This document shows positions 37,423 through 47,520 of a DNA stretch of 47,616 nucleotides, piece by piece. A program made the position numbers and the translations under genes. How positions within the stretch are numbered: the stretch's first letter is position 1; each line of letters begins with the position of its first letter. A model generated the notes under the pieces. That model searched no databases. It was not told the DNA's origin and saw only the letters and a program-made list of their open reading frames with translations. This stretch comes from Desulfobacteraceae bacterium (GTDB taxonomy: Bacteria; Desulfobacterota; DSM-4660; Desulfatiglandales; Desulfatiglandaceae), in the NCBI GenBank assembly GCA_030613055.1, contig JAUWMR010000032.1:1-47616 (forward strand), read 5' to 3'.

Positions 37423-39303
37423 CTATCCGGGGACTGCTGATACTCTTTTCAGGTGTACCTGAATGGCCATAAGCGCCGCGGGTGTGACGCCGGAGATACG
37501 GGATGCCTGGCCTAAAGAGACCGGTCTTACCCTGCCTAATTTTTCTCTCACTTCCGTGGTAAGCCCATGGATCGCCTGGTAGTCAATCGCCTCAGGAAGC
37601 CTGACGTCCTCCATGTGTGCCATCTTTTTCACCTGGCGTTCCTGGCGATCAATATAACCCTCATATTTGATTCTGGTTTCCACCTCATCCGCAACCAGTC
37701 CCTCGATTTTTGAAAGGTTAGGATCGAAAAGATGGAGATGTTCGAAAAATATCTCGCTTCTCTTTAAGAGCTGTTCTAATGACATCTTGTTTTTTATCGG
37801 TGCTGAGCCTAATTCTTTCAAACGGTCAAGGACCGACGGCTCCGGTCTTATTTTGGATTCTTTCAAGCGAGAAAACAATTTTTCCACATCATCCCGTTTT
37901 TTGCAAAAATCATGATACACTTCATCGGAAACCAGGCCTAAGCCATGGCCAATATCCCTGAGTCTGAAATCGGCATTGTCTTCCCTCAAAAGCAGGCGAT
38001 ACTCGGCCCTTGAAGTAAACATGCGGTATGGTTCGTTTGTACCTTTTGTAACGAGGTCATCAATCAACACCCCGCTGTATGCCTGTGATCTCTTAAGTAT
38101 CAGGGGTTCCTCTCCCCGGATTTTCAGGACCGCGTTAATCCCGGCCAACATACCCTGCGCGGCGGCCTCTTCGTAACCGGAGGTCCCGTTTATCTGACCC
38201 GCGTGAAAGAGCCCCTTGACCAACTGGGTCTCCTGGGTCGGCTTAAGTTGAATCGGATTGATATAATCATATTCAATGGCATAACCCGACCGGACAATCT
38301 CGGCCATCTCCAATCCAGGGACTGAGCGCACCATTTTGATTTGAATATCAATTGGCAGACTCGTGGGGAGCCCGTTAGGATATACCTCGGCCGTATCCAG
38401 GCCCTCCGGCTCGAGAAACACCTGGTGTCGTTCTTTTTCGGCAAACCGGACCACCTTGTCTTCAATAGAGGGGCAGTATCTGGCCCCCACACCCTCAATA
38501 ACACCGCTGAACAGGGGCGAGCGGTCCAGACCCTGCCTTATTATGTCATGGGTCTTTTTGTTTGTATGCGTGATATGACAGGGCACCTGTGGCAGCGGGA
38601 TTTTTTTTGTCGTAAAGGAAAAAGGCCTCGGGTTTTCATCCCCGGGCTGCACGATCAGGCCTGAATAATCAATTGTGCGGCCATTGAGCCGCGGGGTGGT
38701 TCCTGTTTTTAGCCGGCCGACTTCAAATCCAAGTTCCTTTAACTGTTCGGAGAGACCGACCGATGGAGGATCTCCCATGCGCCCTGCCGGAAAATGATCA
38801 AGGCCGATATGGATAAGCCCCCGCATGAATGTGCCGGTGGTCAGAACAACTGTCTTAGATAAAAATTTCTCATGGATCTGGCTTTCAACACCATAGATCC
38901 TGCTGTCTTTTACAAGCAAGTGATCGACCATGGCCTGCCGGATATCCAGGTTGGGTTGAGATTCTATTACCGACTTCATCCTCTTCCGGTAAAGATCCCT
39001 GTCATTTTGAGACCGTGAACCCTGAACCGCTAACCCCTTGCGGGTATTAAGACGCCTGAACTGGATGCCTGTCTGATCCGTGTTTTTAGCCATCTCCCCG
39101 CCAAGGGCGTCAATCTCCTTTACCAGGTGACCTTTGGCTAATCCGCCAATGGCAGGATTGCAGCTCATGGCGGCGATATGATCGACATTGATGGTAAGGA
39201 GCAGGGTGGGGTGCCCCATTCTCGCCGCTGCCAGGGCAGCCTCACATCCTGCATGGCCAGCGCCGACCACAATTACGTCATATTCTTTTTCATACGTGGA
39301 CAT
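37423..39303 (-). CDS. mnmG: tRNA uridine-5-carboxymethylaminomethyl modification enzyme MnmG (GidA)
   Basis: The 626-residue flavoprotein has the FAD-binding start VVGAGHAGCEAALAAARMG, the conserved MSCNPAIGGLAKGHLVKEIDALGG (near residue 44) and the C-terminal helical domain with LGRVRPVSLGQASRISGVTPAALMAI. With MnmE it modifies the wobble uridine of several tRNAs. It ends 61 bases from the convergent znuB-like gene. No strong ribosome site is visible before the ATG, and the neighbouring hicA reading frame currently overlaps its start by 31 bases. Confidence 0.97.
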   Translation of the reverse strand: MSTYEKEYDVIVVGAGHAGCEAALAAARMGHPTLLLTINVDHIAAMSCNPAIGGLAKGHLVKEIDALGGEMAKNTDQTGIQFRRLNTRKGLAVQGSRSQNDRDLYRKRMKSVIESQPNLDIRQAMVDHLLVKDSRIYGVESQIHEKFLSKTVVLTTGTFMRGLIHIGLDHFPAGRMGDPPSVGLSEQLKELGFEVGRLKTGTTPRLNGRTIDYSGLIVQPGDENPRPFSFTTKKIPLPQVPCHITHTNKKTHDIIRQGLDRSPLFSGVIEGVGARYCPSIEDKVVRFAEKERHQVFLEPEGLDTAEVYPNGLPTSLPIDIQIKMVRSVPGLEMAEIVRSGYAIEYDYINPIQLKPTQETQLVKGLFHAGQINGTSGYEEAAAQGMLAGINAVLKIRGEEPLILKRSQAYSGVLIDDLVTKGTNEPYRMFTSRAEYRLLLREDNADFRLRDIGHGLGLVSDEVYHDFCKKRDDVEKLFSRLKESKIRPEPSVLDRLKELGSAPIKNKMSLEQLLKRSEIFFEHLHLFDPNLSKIEGLVADEVETRIKYEGYIDRQERQVKKMAHMEDVRLPEAIDYQAIHGLTTEVREKLGRVRPVSLGQASRISGVTPAALMAIQVHLKRVSAVPG

Positions 39304-39512
39304 AGTGGACGCTCAATATTTTGATAATGCTTCTGGCTAAAACCTTGGTGGGAGCCCAGCTTGTTTGCAGTGATTCTGTCAATAGTTTTGTGTCTCTTTA
39401 CCGGGATTGTTTTTGTATTATTAGTATAAATGGAATGTTTACTGCCTTCACGCAGCAAATAGAATCCATTATCCTCAAGGTATTTGACGAGATCACGCCG
39501 TTTGATGGACAT
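39273..39512 (-). CDS. hicA: HicA-family toxin, C-terminus probably frameshifted
   Basis: The first 50 residues match HicA mRNA-interferase folds: SIKRRDLVKYLEDNGFYLLREGSKHSIYTN with the catalytic-type His in GSKH, and TIPVKRHKTIDRITAN. After residue 51 the frame reads LGSHQGFSQKHYQNIERPLCPRMKKN, unlike the family, and runs 31 bases into mnmG. A different frame directly at this point reads AGLPPRF and stops (39337-39339), which is the expected HicA-like end. Start is ATG 39512 with GAGG 6 bases upstream; a TTG at 39518 is also in frame. It overlaps the hicB end by 20 bases. Confidence 0.72.
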   Translation of the reverse strand: MSIKRRDLVKYLEDNGFYLLREGSKHSIYTNNTKTIPVKRHKTIDRITANKLGSHQGFSQKHYQNIERPLCPRMKKNMT

Positions 39513-39732
39513 CGGCAACCTCTACCGGAACCTGTTCAATCAAACAGTTACCTAAGGGTAGTTCTCTGCCTTGCTGCTGGTATGCCAAAACCATCTCATT
39601 AAGGGCGTCCCTCAACATTACACGACAATCCTCTAGATCTTTGCCCTCGGTTATTACTTCCGGCCATTCGATCAGTTGTCCTATATAGCCTGAATCAATT
39701 CTTGTGTATTTTGCAGTATAATTGTGCAACAT
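39493..39732 (-). CDS. hicB: HicB-family antitoxin
   Basis: The 79-residue protein fits the HicB pseudo-RNase-H antitoxin fold (YTAKYTRIDSGYIGQLIEWPEVITEGKDLEDCRVMLRDALNEMVLAYQQQG). No DNA-binding C-terminal domain is evident, so it is the short form. The ATG at 39732 has GAGG 7 bases upstream. Antitoxin first, toxin second is the reverse of the classical E. coli hicA-hicB order but is common in this short type. The pair lies between purA and mnmG, all on one strand. Confidence 0.85.
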   Translation of the reverse strand: MLHNYTAKYTRIDSGYIGQLIEWPEVITEGKDLEDCRVMLRDALNEMVLAYQQQGRELPLGNCLIEQVPVEVADVHQTA

Positions 39733-39778
39733 CACTTTTCCTCGCTTCGTTCTCTGCACCACATTAATGGCACGTGAT

Positions 39779-41086
<1,308 letters not shown>

Positions 41087-42622: not shown

Positions 42623-42719
42623 CCGGAAAGCGTATAATACAATAATTACCCTGGTTCGATCCAACAAGTGATGACTCCACCGGACAAAGATACTGTACCT
42701 AAAAAAACTTGACTTTCTG

Positions 42720-42745
42720 GTCTGGTCAGACTAACTCTGAGGAGG
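42720..42745 (+). promoter_or_regulatory. Palindrome and ribosome site upstream of the antitoxin gene
   Basis: GTCTG-GT-CAGAC (42720-42731) is a short palindrome just before GAGGAGG (42739-42745), placed where Phd-type antitoxins often bind to control their own operon. A TTGACT at 42709 has no -10 consistent with a usable leader. Confidence 0.45.
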
Positions 42746-42753
42746 TGATAAGT

Positions 42754-42993
42754 ATGCTCATAACCAATATTTCAGAGGCAAAGGCCCAGTTATCTGCCCT
42801 TATTGAGAAGGTCATGACCGGGCAAGAGGTGATCATTGGCAAAGCAGGGAAGCCTGTTGCAAAGTTAGTGCGGTATGAGCGAAGCGAGAAACCGCGCCAG
42901 CCCGGCGCCCTGCGAGGAAAAATTAAAATAGCCGATGATTTTGACGAACTACCGGGGGATATTGCCGAAGCGTTCGGGATGGTGGATTCATGA
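42754..42993 (+). CDS. Phd/YefM-family antitoxin
   Basis: The 79-residue protein begins MLITNISEAKAQLSALIEKVMTGQEVIIGKAGKPVAKLVRYE, the standard Phd/YefM DNA-binding and dimerisation part. An acidic flexible tail (ADDFDELPGDIAEAFGM) would wrap the toxin. GAGGAGG lies 8 bases before the ATG. The last four bases (ATGA) are also the toxin start, so the pair is coupled. The pairing of a Phd-type antitoxin with a PIN toxin is common. Confidence 0.92.
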   Translation: MLITNISEAKAQLSALIEKVMTGQEVIIGKAGKPVAKLVRYERSEKPRQPGALRGKIKIADDFDELPGDIAEAFGMVDS

Positions 42994-43367
42994 ACCTCTT
43001 GCTTGATACACATGTTCTTTTATGGTGGCTTGATGATCACCCGACGCTTTCTAAGAAAACAAAGGCCGCAATTGCCGACGGCAAAAACCTGGTTTTTGTC
43101 AGTGCCGTCGTCATTTGGGAAATAAGGATCAAGCAGGCATTAGGAAAACTGCAAATTCCAAAAGATTTCCGGAAGGTGTTAGGTGGCCAGCCCTTTGAGA
43201 TGTTGGACATCACTGTTGAACACGCACATGCTGTCGGGGACCTTCCGGCACATCACCGAGACCCGTTTGATAGGATGCTTGTAGCCCAGGCAAAAGTAGA
43301 AGGTCTTACGCTTGTGACACGTGATATTCGTTTAAAGAAATACAAAATCCCGCTTATTGAGGCTTAA
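42990..43367 (+). CDS. vapC: PIN-domain toxin (VapC-like RNase)
   Basis: The 125-residue PIN domain has the acidic residues for the Mg site: Asp6 in LLLDTHVLLWWL, Glu in VIWEIRIKQALGKL (about residue 48), Asp in HHRDPFDRMLVAQA (about 91) and Asp in VTRDIRLKKY (about 110). The ATGA overlap with the antitoxin stop shows co-translation. The target is probably tRNA or another structured RNA (family knowledge). Confidence 0.93.
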   Translation: MNLLLDTHVLLWWLDDHPTLSKKTKAAIADGKNLVFVSAVVIWEIRIKQALGKLQIPKDFRKVLGGQPFEMLDITVEHAHAVGDLPAHHRDPFDRMLVAQAKVEGLTLVTRDIRLKKYKIPLIEA

Positions 43368-43863: not shown

Positions 43864-45006
43864 TTATTTTTCTATTATTCTCAGATAACTAATCCAGTAT
43901 CGCATGAAGATATCAGAGAATTGGTAAGAACCTCCTTTGGTCTTGTAAAATATACCTTTTTTCATTAGGGAATCAAGAGAAGCCTTTATAGAGGATGAAG
44001 GGCCAATGCCATGGGTTAATTGAAATTCCCTGGAAAAGGGCTTGGCCCCGGGATCTTTGCTCAAGGCAATAATAAGGATTTTTTGTCGCTGAGAAGCTGA
44101 TTGCCAGATTAACTCATAATGAGGTGAATCCTGCTTGGCAATAATAAATGGGAGATCTTTAATCATGAAGGAGGTCACCTCATGGGTTTCACGGGCCAAT
44201 TCCCACAGGGTGTGGCACAGTCTCTGGACGTTGTATGGCACATCCATTCCCAATTCAAATATCTTTTCAAGGCTATTCCTTTCCATTTTATATGGCCCTT
44301 TTTGAAACCAGTTATAGATAAAAACGGCATAGGAATCCCTATCAATTGGTCCAATTTCCATGATCCTTCCTAATTTGTAGAAGGCCCTTTTCCTATCACG
44401 AATCATGGACAGCATTACCGACTGTTCTGAGCCAGAGAAAATGTATCCGATGTGCTCATGCTTTTGAATTTCAGAACGCATCGCCTTTTCAAGTATATGA
44501 CCGTTATGTTTGGGAAGGTCAGAAAATTCATCGATAATCACCACCAGCTTCTTACCTTTTTTCCATGCCAATTTTTCAGCATGTTCCATACCTTCCAGAA
44601 GAGCGGGAAGGGCCTCTCTATATTCGGAGGCCACTTCCACAGTCCCGATCAACGAGCCGTCTTGTCCTACTGAAACCTTTGGCCGTAACCTTTGAAGTCC
44701 GGCAAAGATTTTCAACAACTTCTCCGTATTCGATTCCAGGGCTTTAGAGGTAAGGTGAGTAAAAGCTGCCGCAAAACTTCGTACATCCGGATAGGCATTA
44801 AGATCGAGATAAGCCGTGTCAAATCCACTATCATGGAGTTGATCCATAAGATTGAACAAAAGGCAGGTCTTGCCAAAACGTCTGGGAGAGATCAAAAATA
44901 CTCTACTGAGATTATTCATCTCCTGAACGAGTTCAGCCAATTCCTCTTTGCGGTCGGCAAAGTGAGGGCCGCGAACAATACCACCATATTTAAAAGGGTT
45001 TTCCAT
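43864..45006 (-). CDS. STAND-type AAA ATPase (archaeal-type ATPase_2 family) with C-terminal winged helix
   Basis: The 380-residue protein starts NPFKYGGIVRGPHFADRKEELAELV. Its P-loop is ISPRRFGKT (residues 39-47, with Ser in place of the first Gly, as is usual here) and its Walker B is KLVVIIDEFSDLP (about 150-162), followed by a sensor FSGSEQSVM. The C-terminal 90 residues (SASQRQKILIIALS, GIGPSSSIKASLDSLMKKGIFYKTKGGSYQFSDIFMRYW) form the winged helix. Such proteins occur in mobile regions of bacteria and archaea; the function is unknown. The gene is complete; no strong ribosome site is seen. A promoter-like TTGACA / TAATAC (15-base spacer) lies at 45050-45076 on the minus strand, with TTAACG-GTT-CGTTAA palindrome at 45017-45031 after it. 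Confidence 0.85.
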   Translation of the reverse strand: MENPFKYGGIVRGPHFADRKEELAELVQEMNNLSRVFLISPRRFGKTCLLFNLMDQLHDSGFDTAYLDLNAYPDVRSFAAAFTHLTSKALESNTEKLLKIFAGLQRLRPKVSVGQDGSLIGTVEVASEYREALPALLEGMEHAEKLAWKKGKKLVVIIDEFSDLPKHNGHILEKAMRSEIQKHEHIGYIFSGSEQSVMLSMIRDRKRAFYKLGRIMEIGPIDRDSYAVFIYNWFQKGPYKMERNSLEKIFELGMDVPYNVQRLCHTLWELARETHEVTSFMIKDLPFIIAKQDSPHYELIWQSASQRQKILIIALSKDPGAKPFSREFQLTHGIGPSSSIKASLDSLMKKGIFYKTKGGSYQFSDIFMRYWISYLRIIEK

Positions 45007-45428
45007 GATGAAATATTTAACGGTTCGTTAATAGCGGTTCGGTGTTAACGTATTACATAATGTGCACGCATGTCAAGTAAAAATAATAAAACCAATGATT
45101 CAAATACGGCGTGAAGGCTGGATTTATTGCCCGGCTAATTCCATCTAAGAATCAGATTAACTTTGGCCGTTTTGAGTTATTCAATAATGCAAAAACGTTC
45201 GGCTTCTCCGCTATCAAAAGTTATTCAACATAGCCAACAATGTCCCTATCTCCCCATACCCATTCTATACTAAAAATTAGAGAGCGTCCCAAATTCCTCC
45301 CGGTCTTTCTTTAATAGTTCTAAATAGTTAGCGTGGCCCGACCCCATCTCATTAAAATTTTTTCGGCTTATAAAAAAATCAAACTGTCCTATTTCAAGGG
45401 CTGACCCCAATGGGTCTCTTGGTCCTCA
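45007..45428. other. Spacer between the ATPase and the TIR-like gene
   Basis: No open frame of note. It contains the palindrome TTAACG-GTT-CGTTAA (45017-45031), a third TTAACG near 45045, and the promoter-like TTGACA (minus strand, 45076-45071) of the ATPase gene. The rest is AT-rich without clear structure. Confidence 0.4.
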
Positions 45429-46064
45429 TTAAGAGTCACTTGAGTACCATGTTAATTCTTCAAGCCATTCGTATACCAAATGAACATAGTCCTTATATAT
45501 CAGTTTATTTTGATTAAATTGCAGAGTTTTGCACATTCTGGGTAAGGTCTTCCTGAACCTCTGGTAACGCTTCCAAATGACGTCCCCATCTGGCAGAGTA
45601 GTACGCCTTGATTTACCCCTAAGCCAGTCTCGAACTATTCTGATTGCATTTTTAGTAGAATTGTTGTGTGCGCTTATATCCTGTCCTGAGATATCTGATA
45701 TGAACTTCTGATACCGATAGGCCTTTTTGTCAAGAATAAGGCATGACTTTTTATTATGCTTTCCACTTCCAAATTTTTTTGCCGAAAGGAAAATACCCAA
45801 TTCCAGAGGCATATTGAAGCGAGGGAGGTTGTTTTTAGAGTCAAGTTCGGTTCGAGAGATGTCATGGATACTATACTGGCAGGAGTTAACGATGTTGTAA
45901 ATCTTTTCTATTCTAATTTGGCTGGCGTCATCCTCTTCAAGAGTGCAGCGAGGGACAAATCCACAATCGAATATCGCGAATATGATAGCGTGGAATATTG
46001 GATCATATTGCTTATCAAACGGGCAATTTATGAAGACGTTATCGTTATAGCTAGACCTGCGCAA
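45429..46064 (-). CDS. TIR-like nucleotide-binding domain protein
   Basis: The 211-residue soluble protein opens NDNVFINCPFDKQYDPIFHAIIFAIFDCGFVPR, a first strand and helix of a Rossmann-like TIR fold. It continues LEEDDASQIRIEKIYNIVNSCQYSIHDISR and then FNMPLELGIFLSAKKFG with Glu88. The ELG motif after the IHDIS strand resembles the NVxFELG motif of bacterial TIR-like/CAP-nucleotide-linked domains, where the Glu is the likely NAD-cleaving residue. The second half is helical and basic, without a known domain. The start is TTG (46064); GAGGAG lies 9 bases upstream. It is the second gene after the GIY-YIG-like gene, 44 bases away. Confidence 0.7.
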   Translation of the reverse strand: MRRSSYNDNVFINCPFDKQYDPIFHAIIFAIFDCGFVPRCTLEEDDASQIRIEKIYNIVNSCQYSIHDISRTELDSKNNLPRFNMPLELGIFLSAKKFGSGKHNKKSCLILDKKAYRYQKFISDISGQDISAHNNSTKNAIRIVRDWLRGKSRRTTLPDGDVIWKRYQRFRKTLPRMCKTLQFNQNKLIYKDYVHLVYEWLEELTWYSSDS

Positions 46065-46108
46065 AGATTTAGACTCCTCATGTACTTTCCAAGTTGATAA
46101 TTTCCAAC

Positions 46109-46390
46109 CTAAATTTGCTTCATTCCTGTATGCGCTGCTTTCTTATATTCGATTTTCTTTCGCGAACCGCTTATGGGTGGGGATTTTACTACCGTCTTGC
46201 TAATCATATCCTTTTCACATTCTCTGGCGGCCTCTTCAGTTGTCCGACGGCCTACTTTGTAAATATGACCTTTAGGCCATTTCTGTTGGTACTCTTGTTC
46301 CCTACGTTCCAAATCGTTTGTTATTCCGCCGTGGACGATCTTGTTCCCGACCTTGAAATAATATTTATAAGTATCTTTTGCTTTTGCCAT
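46109..46390 (-). CDS. Small GIY-YIG-like protein
   Basis: The 93-residue protein contains KYYFKVGNKIVHGGITNDLERREQEYQQKWPKGHIYKVGRRTTEEAARECEKDM. The first strand, HGG, then GITNDLERR with the Arg, and a helix with an acidic residue (REC) recall the GIY-YIG nuclease core, where the second Tyr-Ile-Gly has become HGG. The tail is short and basic (SGSRKKIEYKKAAH). A nuclease role is possible but the first motif Tyr is uncertain. It has a GAGG site before its ATG and is transcribed ahead of the TIR-like gene. Confidence 0.65.
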   Translation of the reverse strand: MAKAKDTYKYYFKVGNKIVHGGITNDLERREQEYQQKWPKGHIYKVGRRTTEEAARECEKDMISKTVVKSPPISGSRKKIEYKKAAHTGMKQI

Positions 46391-46575
46391 AATACATCCT
46401 CAGAGTCTTTATATGTTCAAACTGTAAAACAAGCCTCTTAACAAATTATTCTACCGCGCCCGGTGTTCTGCACCTTATCATGATCCGCGGGATAGAGCGT
46501 CGAAAGATTTTCATCAATTGAGTTTCTTACCTTTTTACCAGCGTCCCCTTGCAATAAAAGAACCAAATGTAATCA
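46391..46575. other. Spacer, no clear feature
   Basis: A 185-base gap upstream of the GIY-YIG-like gene on the minus strand. It must hold that gene's promoter but no confident pair of boxes is visible. The middle is CG-rich (CCGCGCCCGG) amid AT-rich flanks. Confidence 0.3.
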
Positions 46576-47520
46576 TTAAAAATTACGTGCCGAATGAAGC
46601 ATGTGGTCCCGGAGGAAGTATGCACAGGACGATCCTGTCTCTATCATGGCGTTGAGCAACACCAAGGACACTTCTCTGAGGTTTCTGGATTGCTTGTATT
46701 CCGCAGGAGATAAAACTAATAACTTCTGCAATACACGTTCCAAGTAGAATACGGTATTTACTCCGGAAAATAAATGTGTTCCTCTTGTTTTTTTTTGGTG
46801 TTTAGCCAGAATAATCAATCCTTTTGGCATGAACAGTTGTGGAAAAGAGAACAGAAATCGACTCATTGCCTCGAAAACTAAAGGATTTTCTCCAGCTTTT
46901 TGAACAAAATCAAGGAGAAGCTCCAATCCGGGAACAAGAAGCTCTTGTTCTGGTTTTACTTGTTGCCATGGAGTGTCGGCAAAAAGCATTCCCAAGATCA
47001 GTTTGCTCTGTTCGCCATAGGGCGAATATAGTCTACTCTTCTGACTGAGCTTGACAGCAATTTCCACCGCCCTTTCAGAGAGCTTCCTCCAGAAGTTCCA
47101 GTATAATTCGATATTACCTAGTTTCTCAGCTGAACAAAGAAAACAAACCATCAGCCAATGTAAAAAGCTTGGGGCTGATTCACTCCGTTCTATGAGCAAA
47201 TCATCAAAACGCTTAGCATCTGTTTCCGAGATACTCAAATAAAAATCAGCGAATCGTCTGGAAAACTCCATCGGAAGTTCAGGTGGTATTTCTATTCTCT
47301 TATCATCGCCATGACCTCTTTGATCTTGGGATTCTTCAGCCTCAAGCAAGAGCGAGAGAATTCTTGTTAAAAGAGACGTGTGCTCAGCCTTGGTAGAGCC
47401 ATCTGGAATCATCAAGCAAGGAGCAAGAAGATGCCAAGTGCTATGAGTATCAAAGGTAATGCAGGTCGGATCAGCGTTTACCCTAACGTTGCATAAATTT
47501 ATCATGATCTGCGAAGTCAA
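46576..47520 (-). CDS. Large-protein C-terminal remnant cut by a mobile element
   Basis: The reading frame of 314 residues starts only at a TTG inside the end of a mobile element. The first 14 codons (TSQIMINLCNVRVN) are element sequence (ACCCTAACGTTGCATAAAT at 47480-47498 in reverse), so the native part begins near 47479. That part is helical, Leu-rich (LLTRILSLLLEAEE, YLERVLQKLLVLSPAEYKQSRNLREVSLVLLNAMIETGSSCAYFLRDHML) and has no motif I recognise. It looks like the C-terminal region of a longer, possibly ATPase-type, protein. Whether it is still expressed is unknown; probably a pseudogene. Confidence 0.6.
   Translation of the reverse strand: MTSQIMINLCNVRVNADPTCITFDTHSTWHLLAPCLMIPDGSTKAEHTSLLTRILSLLLEAEESQDQRGHGDDKRIEIPPELPMEFSRRFADFYLSISETDAKRFDDLLIERSESAPSFLHWLMVCFLCSAEKLGNIELYWNFWRKLSERAVEIAVKLSQKSRLYSPYGEQSKLILGMLFADTPWQQVKPEQELLVPGLELLLDFVQKAGENPLVFEAMSRFLFSFPQLFMPKGLIILAKHQKKTRGTHLFSGVNTVFYLERVLQKLLVLSPAEYKQSRNLREVSLVLLNAMIETGSSCAYFLRDHMLHSARNF

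Follow-up and report, generated by a model that had tools for sequence, protein, structure and literature searches.

The two-gene unit, its close copy and its distribution

The window, that is, the whole stretch of 47,616 nucleotides that was analysed, carries towards its end a unit of two genes on the minus strand, in which the gene for a small basic protein precedes that for a protein with a TIR/nucleoside deoxyribosyltransferase (NDT) fold (Table 1). The two adjoining same-direction ORFs of 93 and 211 residues with a 44-nt gap, on which a preliminary description had been built, are therefore borne out. Both genes have good ribosome sites, and both frames are kept open in a close copy at locus L002, which belongs to a Desulfobacteraceae MAG. 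Between the two loci, dN and dS are 0.037 and 0.096 for the partner gene and 0.028 and 0.074 for the TIR-like gene, with dN/dS about 0.38 in each case. As a genome contig search also retrieved 38 relatives of the TIR-like protein with 38-94% identity, both ORFs are considered to be genes and not chance frames. No RNA element from Rfam was detected, and a promoter and terminator scan was uninformative.

Table 1. Features of the two-gene unit and of its surroundings in the window
Feature	Coordinates	Strand	Details
Whole mobile unit	45414..46442	-	block in common with L002 5623-6650, 95.9% nucleotide identity
TIR/NDT-fold protein, 211 aa	45429..46064	-	TTG start, GAGGAG 8 nt upstream
Spacer between partner and TIR-like gene, 44 nt	46065..46108	-	contains GAGGAG ribosome site
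Gene for the small basic partner, 93 aa, net charge +11	46109..46390	-	ATG start, GAGG upstream
Partner domain layout			GIY-YIG-like domain about residues 7-61, then 30-residue C-terminal extension
Partner C-terminal extension	46112..46207	-	residues 62-93, begins VVKSPPISGSRKKIE
Avs4 C-terminal (sensor) end fragment	46576..47520	-	model positions 1315-1579; frame broken upstream, near contig end
Phd/VapC-like toxin-antitoxin pair	42709-43367		read from ORFs
ATPase_2 protein	43864-45006		Pfam

The 1,029-bp block in common with L002 holds just these two genes, starts 52 bp upstream of the partner gene and stops 15 bp beyond the TIR-like gene; significant similarity between the window and L002 was not found outside of it. 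While the block is 95.9% identical, identity between the two genomes is only 62% for PurA and 56% for MnmG. Thus, a recent transfer of the block as a unit is the most likely explanation. Mis-binned contigs could mimic such a transfer, because the GIY-YIG version is known from draft assemblies in both genomes and L002 comes from a MAG.

The TIR-like family is rare and patchily distributed (3/395, 8/398 and 26/296 genomes in three genome samples). Its hosts belong to Desulfobacterota, Pseudomonadota, Bacteroidota/Chlorobiota, Acidobacteriota, Chloroflexota and Actinomycetota and include one archaeon. It occurs on 17 plasmid records and on 11 IMG/VR contigs. No member was found among the phages of INPHARED, and no GIY-YIG-like protein of the window type was found on plasmids. 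Just past the cassette, at 45310-45413 of the window, GC-rich repeat-like motifs are present (GTGGCCCGACCCC at 45333 and TTCAAGGGCTGACCCC at 45393). On the same side of the cassette, L002 carries GGGTCGGGCCAC, and these motifs resemble REP-type elements.

Fold and active site of the TIR-like protein

The 211-residue protein matches no Pfam family above cut-off, the sole touch being PF10137 (E 0.037, 14.5 bits vs 24.7), and no family of NCBIfam or PADLOC; a search of the PDB provided no useful sequence relative. An AlphaFold model, built from an alignment of 32 sequences (pLDDT 86.3, pTM 0.86), displays a flavodoxin-like alternating fold, in which the helix of residues 85-98 begins with M85-P86-L87-E88 and thus places a Glu at its N-terminal end. 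The top Foldseek matches are nucleoside deoxyribosyltransferase, TIR-STING and the SPARTA TIR, with weak E-values, the best of which (2e-3) belongs to a deoxyribosyltransferase. Comparison of the model with the PDB by VIA yielded DNPH1, MilB and the SPARTA TIR at Z 11-12, and plant TIRs are included among matches with an overall Z of 10-12. On the basis of this model, the protein can be assigned with confidence to the TIR/NDT superfamily fold, in agreement with the TIR-like fold that had been proposed for it earlier.

Glu88, His67, Asp68, Arg82, Met85, Ser123 and Asp124 are unchanged in 82/82 TIR-like relatives, so that the conservation of Glu88 suspected before holds. Asn84 is invariant or nearly so, and position 11 is Phe in all 80 relatives having that residue. 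Glu88 is predicted to be the catalytic residue. The VIA alignment of residues 6..149 to residues 19..159 of human DNPH1 puts Phe11 at Tyr24, as read from the aligned ranges only. Tyr24, Asp80 and Glu104 are key residues of DNPH1, and the exchange of Tyr to Phe in rat DNPH1 cut activity 280-fold (PMC10483697). In NADase TIRs, Phe or Ala is usually found where NDT and DNPH1 enzymes have Tyr, as reported in work on TM-macro Thoeris (PMC11204291). Because Phe11 would stand where the deoxynucleotide-specific DNPH1 and NDT enzymes have Tyr, NAD(P)+ is favoured as the substrate, and Phe11 would point to a ribonucleotide such as NAD+.

With TIR NADase effectors and with Thoeris ThsB, the family has in common the fold (Z about 10-11 against TIR structures) and a Glu at the helix start that corresponds to the catalytic one; a Phe at the expected NADase-type position may be a further common trait, as judged from alignment ranges. 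In contrast to these proteins, the window protein does not reach the cut-off of TIR_1, TIR_2, ThsB_TIR or any of the PADLOC models, and its family consists of stand-alone proteins of 200 residues whose C-terminal part is helical and which have a small partner of their own, with ThsA in one locus only. DNPH1, nucleoside 2'-deoxyribosyltransferase and MilB are the best structural matches and have the catalytic Glu and likely the equivalent of Asp68 in common with it, but all relatives in which the residue is present have Phe instead of Tyr, and sequence similarity is absent. Of the Pfam families, PF10137 (CAP12/Pycsar TIR) alone is approached, by three members with E 0.014-0.037; however, the match is always below the curated cut-off, and neither a cyclase nor a CD-NTase lies beside the window gene.

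The small basic partner and its variants

For the architecture count, 84 non-redundant TIR-like genes were considered, and a partner was defined as a small ORF on the same strand whose end lies at -60..+40 nt relative to the profile start. Such an ORF is present at 82/84 TIR-like genes, as compared to 107/271 control genes (39%), and the two exceptions are one fusion protein and one gene at a contig edge. A GIY-YIG partner is found in 2/84 loci only, the window and its near-twin L002, and the GIY-YIG relatives at L044, L045 and L106 have no TIR-like gene beside them. The conserved GIY-YIG and TIR pair, as the cassette had initially been understood, is thus rejected. Rare adjacency of homologues had been named beforehand as a refuting result, and the outcome is divided: the exact pair is rarely adjacent, whereas the architecture with a small partner is kept. 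The GIY-YIG pairing is therefore a rare variant of a broader small-basic-partner rule, and what is conserved is a mobile two-gene architecture that combines an invariant TIR/NDT active site with an exchangeable basic partner.

The commonest partner type is DUF2188 (PF09954), which Pfam recognised in 34/73 scanned partners. Most of the others are Lys/Ala/Ser-rich and carry a C-terminal motif around VKSPxKKGxxSxxKIxxAVxxV. All 70 classified partners have a net basic charge (median +11.5), and 47 of them have their end at -5..+26 nt relative to the effector's profile start. A leave-clade-out test recovered 18/37 tails at >= 9 bits, which indicates that the tail motif is real in several clades but loose. 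DUF2188 itself occurs mostly without TIR, and an exclusive DUF2188-TIR pairing was likewise rejected, since only 2/30 DUF2188 loci in a sample of one phylum carry a TIR-like gene. The window partner differs from the commonest type in that DUF2188 is absent from it. In the tree, the window and L002 group with the archaeal locus L003, the partner of which consists of DUF2188 plus tail, and a GIY-YIG-like domain has therefore apparently replaced DUF2188 in the window/L002 lineage.

Loci of the Chlorobium type encode the TIR-like domain as a fusion with an FGE-sulfatase domain and have no partner with DUF2188 or the tail. TIR-like domains are part of long ORFs in L022, L025, L078, L080 and L081, and the FGE-sulfatase fusion is Pfam-confirmed in L022 and L025. 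FGE domains have been proposed as antigen sensors in conflict systems (PMC10907252). As the FGE fusion stands in the partner's stead, this analogy hints that the small partner may fill a sensing or control role. The long ORF of L080 has a Phd/YefM-like gene in front of it.

The window partner itself has no Pfam match, neither to PF01541 nor to DUF2188. Its likeness to GIY-YIG proteins, noted from the start, is maintained by the L002 copy, which comes close to PF01541 (E 3e-4, 21.5 bits, cut-off 22.6), and by a profile of the window-partner family, which picks up GIY-YIG-looking ORFs in other genomes. The model of the partner is of low confidence (pLDDT 57); its strand-helix order, b-b-a-b-a, is as expected for GIY-YIG, and Foldseek lists UvrC GIY-YIG domains near the top with E above 1. 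With the GIY-YIG nucleases (PF01541, UvrC-N, YhbQ-like), the partner shares this order and the motif GITNDLERR, but it is shortened and stays below the cut-off. Tyr10, Arg30 and Glu59 are kept in all four aligned relatives, whereas His replaces the YIG Tyr in most relatives, as His20 does in the window partner, and the canonical C-terminal part with the conserved Asn is absent. The GIY-YIG module is therefore probably inactive or weakly active, and the nuclease function earlier ascribed to it is doubtful.

The stand-alone relatives at L044, L045 and L106 stop where the tail would start. Compared with the tail motif of other partners, the window tail gives a shuffle frequency of about 0.01 (75/5000 and 30/3000), although 44/1000 was obtained for a control segment from the GIY domain and 641/20000 in one pairwise test. 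A weak likeness to the other tails is suggestive. The tail as a leftover of a normal GIY-YIG C-terminus is unsupported (848/3000 shuffles). At L044 (202-1350), the stand-alone gene is followed on the same strand by a metallo-beta-lactamase-like gene.

Genomic setting and possible function

The accessory setting proposed for the window is substantiated by the Phd/VapC-like pair and the ATPase_2 protein, and the unit is in addition accompanied by an Avs4 fragment that had been overlooked and that appears to be either a decayed Avs4 or the end of an assembly. A HicAB-like pair is located at 39273-39825 and is, like the Phd/VapC-like pair, close to mnmG and purA, two housekeeping genes. Genes for a dCTP-deaminase homologue, an HSP90-type ATPase and a SIR2 protein are among those that precede the unit in L002. 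Some neighbours of TIR-like loci match models for restriction, SoFic, LmuB and retrons; many neighbours are ordinary housekeeping genes, and the survey was made without a matched random background, so that enrichment is unproved. The statement that no named system combines a GIY-YIG with a TIR-like protein stands within the libraries searched (Pfam, NCBIfam, PADLOC), and neither the enzyme family nor its partner rule corresponds to a curated family or a named defence system in them.

The two-gene unit, mobile across bacteria and archaea, is probably a self-killing or anti-phage module. More specifically, we propose, with about even confidence, a horizontally spread effector module in which a TIR-type NAD(P)/nucleotide glycosidase is governed by a small basic, probably nucleic-acid-binding partner. 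The enzyme would cleave NAD(P)+ or a related nucleotide via Glu88 and would be harmful once switched on. The partner would be made first, often translationally coupled to the enzyme. Its N-terminal domain may bind nucleic acid, as suggested by its charge and by the fold names, and it could restrain the enzyme or bring it to its trigger, and in this way link it to phage nucleic acid or other stress. In the window, the GIY-YIG module, probably inactive or weakly active, would do so from the place at which the sister locus has its DUF2188 domain. The defence role is what we infer for the module, now from an improved context.

Alternatively, the TIR-like protein could be a ThsB-like maker of an NAD-derived signal for an effector nearby or elsewhere, with the partner as the phage sensor. 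The viral contig L055 (1398-7379) contains a dense multi-TIR Thoeris cluster in which a DUF2188 and TIR-like pair lies between two TM-macro ThsA genes (PF20016, E 2e-55) in one strand run. A DUF4062 protein, a ThsB (PF08937, E 5e-17) and a TIR that matches PADLOC ThsB1 are encoded there as well, and the cluster holds two TIR genes besides ThsB and the pair. Multiple ThsB genes can occur in a Thoeris locus (PMC11204291). However, ThsA is near the TIR-like gene only in L055 among the 39 loci with scanned neighbours and was not seen in the window flanks by ORFs and models up to the contig end at 47616, PADLOC ThsB models do not recognise the TIR-like protein of L055, and L055 may be a defence cluster merely containing both. 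Signal production is therefore considered unlikely.

We assign a similarly low probability to a plain two-gene toxin-antitoxin module that maintains itself in genomes and plasmids and has no phage role. Like type II toxin-antitoxin systems, the family forms a two-gene unit with the small partner first and the effector second, and the tight spacing or overlap (47/70 at -5..+26 nt), the small basic partner, the patchy distribution, the plasmid records and the other toxin-antitoxin pairs near the unit in the window would fit such a module. The association with defence genes in several loci and the FGE fusions, however, fit a sensed trigger better than addiction. Still less probable is a housekeeping function, with the enzyme acting on modified (phage) nucleotides as a hydrolase or transferase like DNPH1/MilB/NDT and the partner as an RNA/DNA-binding helper: DNPH1 and MilB have the top structural Z and a deoxyribosyltransferase the best Foldseek E, but the position expected beside the catalytic Glu is Phe and not Tyr in 80/80 relatives, the exchange that cost rat DNPH1 280-fold, and the family is patchy and accessory. 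That the GIY-YIG-like protein is a working nuclease regulated by the TIR-like protein is highly improbable, because, despite the retention of Tyr10, Arg30 and Glu59, the YIG Tyr is mostly His, the C-terminal region with the conserved Asn is lacking, and only the closest of the TIR-like relatives has a GIY-YIG partner while Glu88 never varies.

If the governed glycosidase is the right reading, the family represents a TIR-type effector new to Pfam (above cut-off), NCBIfam and PADLOC, and the uncharacterised DUF2188 family gains a testable role. The swapping of partner domains before one enzyme would then constitute a natural experiment on TIR switching, a question that is open for most bacterial TIRs. 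Rather tentatively, the small basic proteins, with DUF2188, a GIY-YIG-like domain or a Lys/Ala-rich sequence plus C-terminal motif, might form an unrecognised class of interchangeable sensor or regulator subunits in bacterial defence, which is paired with the TIR-like family and of which DUF2188 is also present in CBASS (L128), in type I restriction islands (L120, L125) and in the Thoeris cluster of L055. Literature coupling DUF2188 with TIR was not found, and the 7 papers naming DUF2188 are, by title, not about defence.

In L128 (1411-3179), a DUF2188 gene overlaps a CapV-like patatin gene, which is followed by a CD-NTase (7ljo, E 8.5e-41). This locus appears as CBASS with an extra DUF2188 protein, and L127 likewise combines DUF2188 with a patatin. 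As read from ORFs, DUF2188 in L120 and L125 is located behind HsdS-like genes, between HsdS-like and NTPase genes, and in L131 it precedes HAD-like and RhuM-like genes; all three loci look like type I restriction islands.
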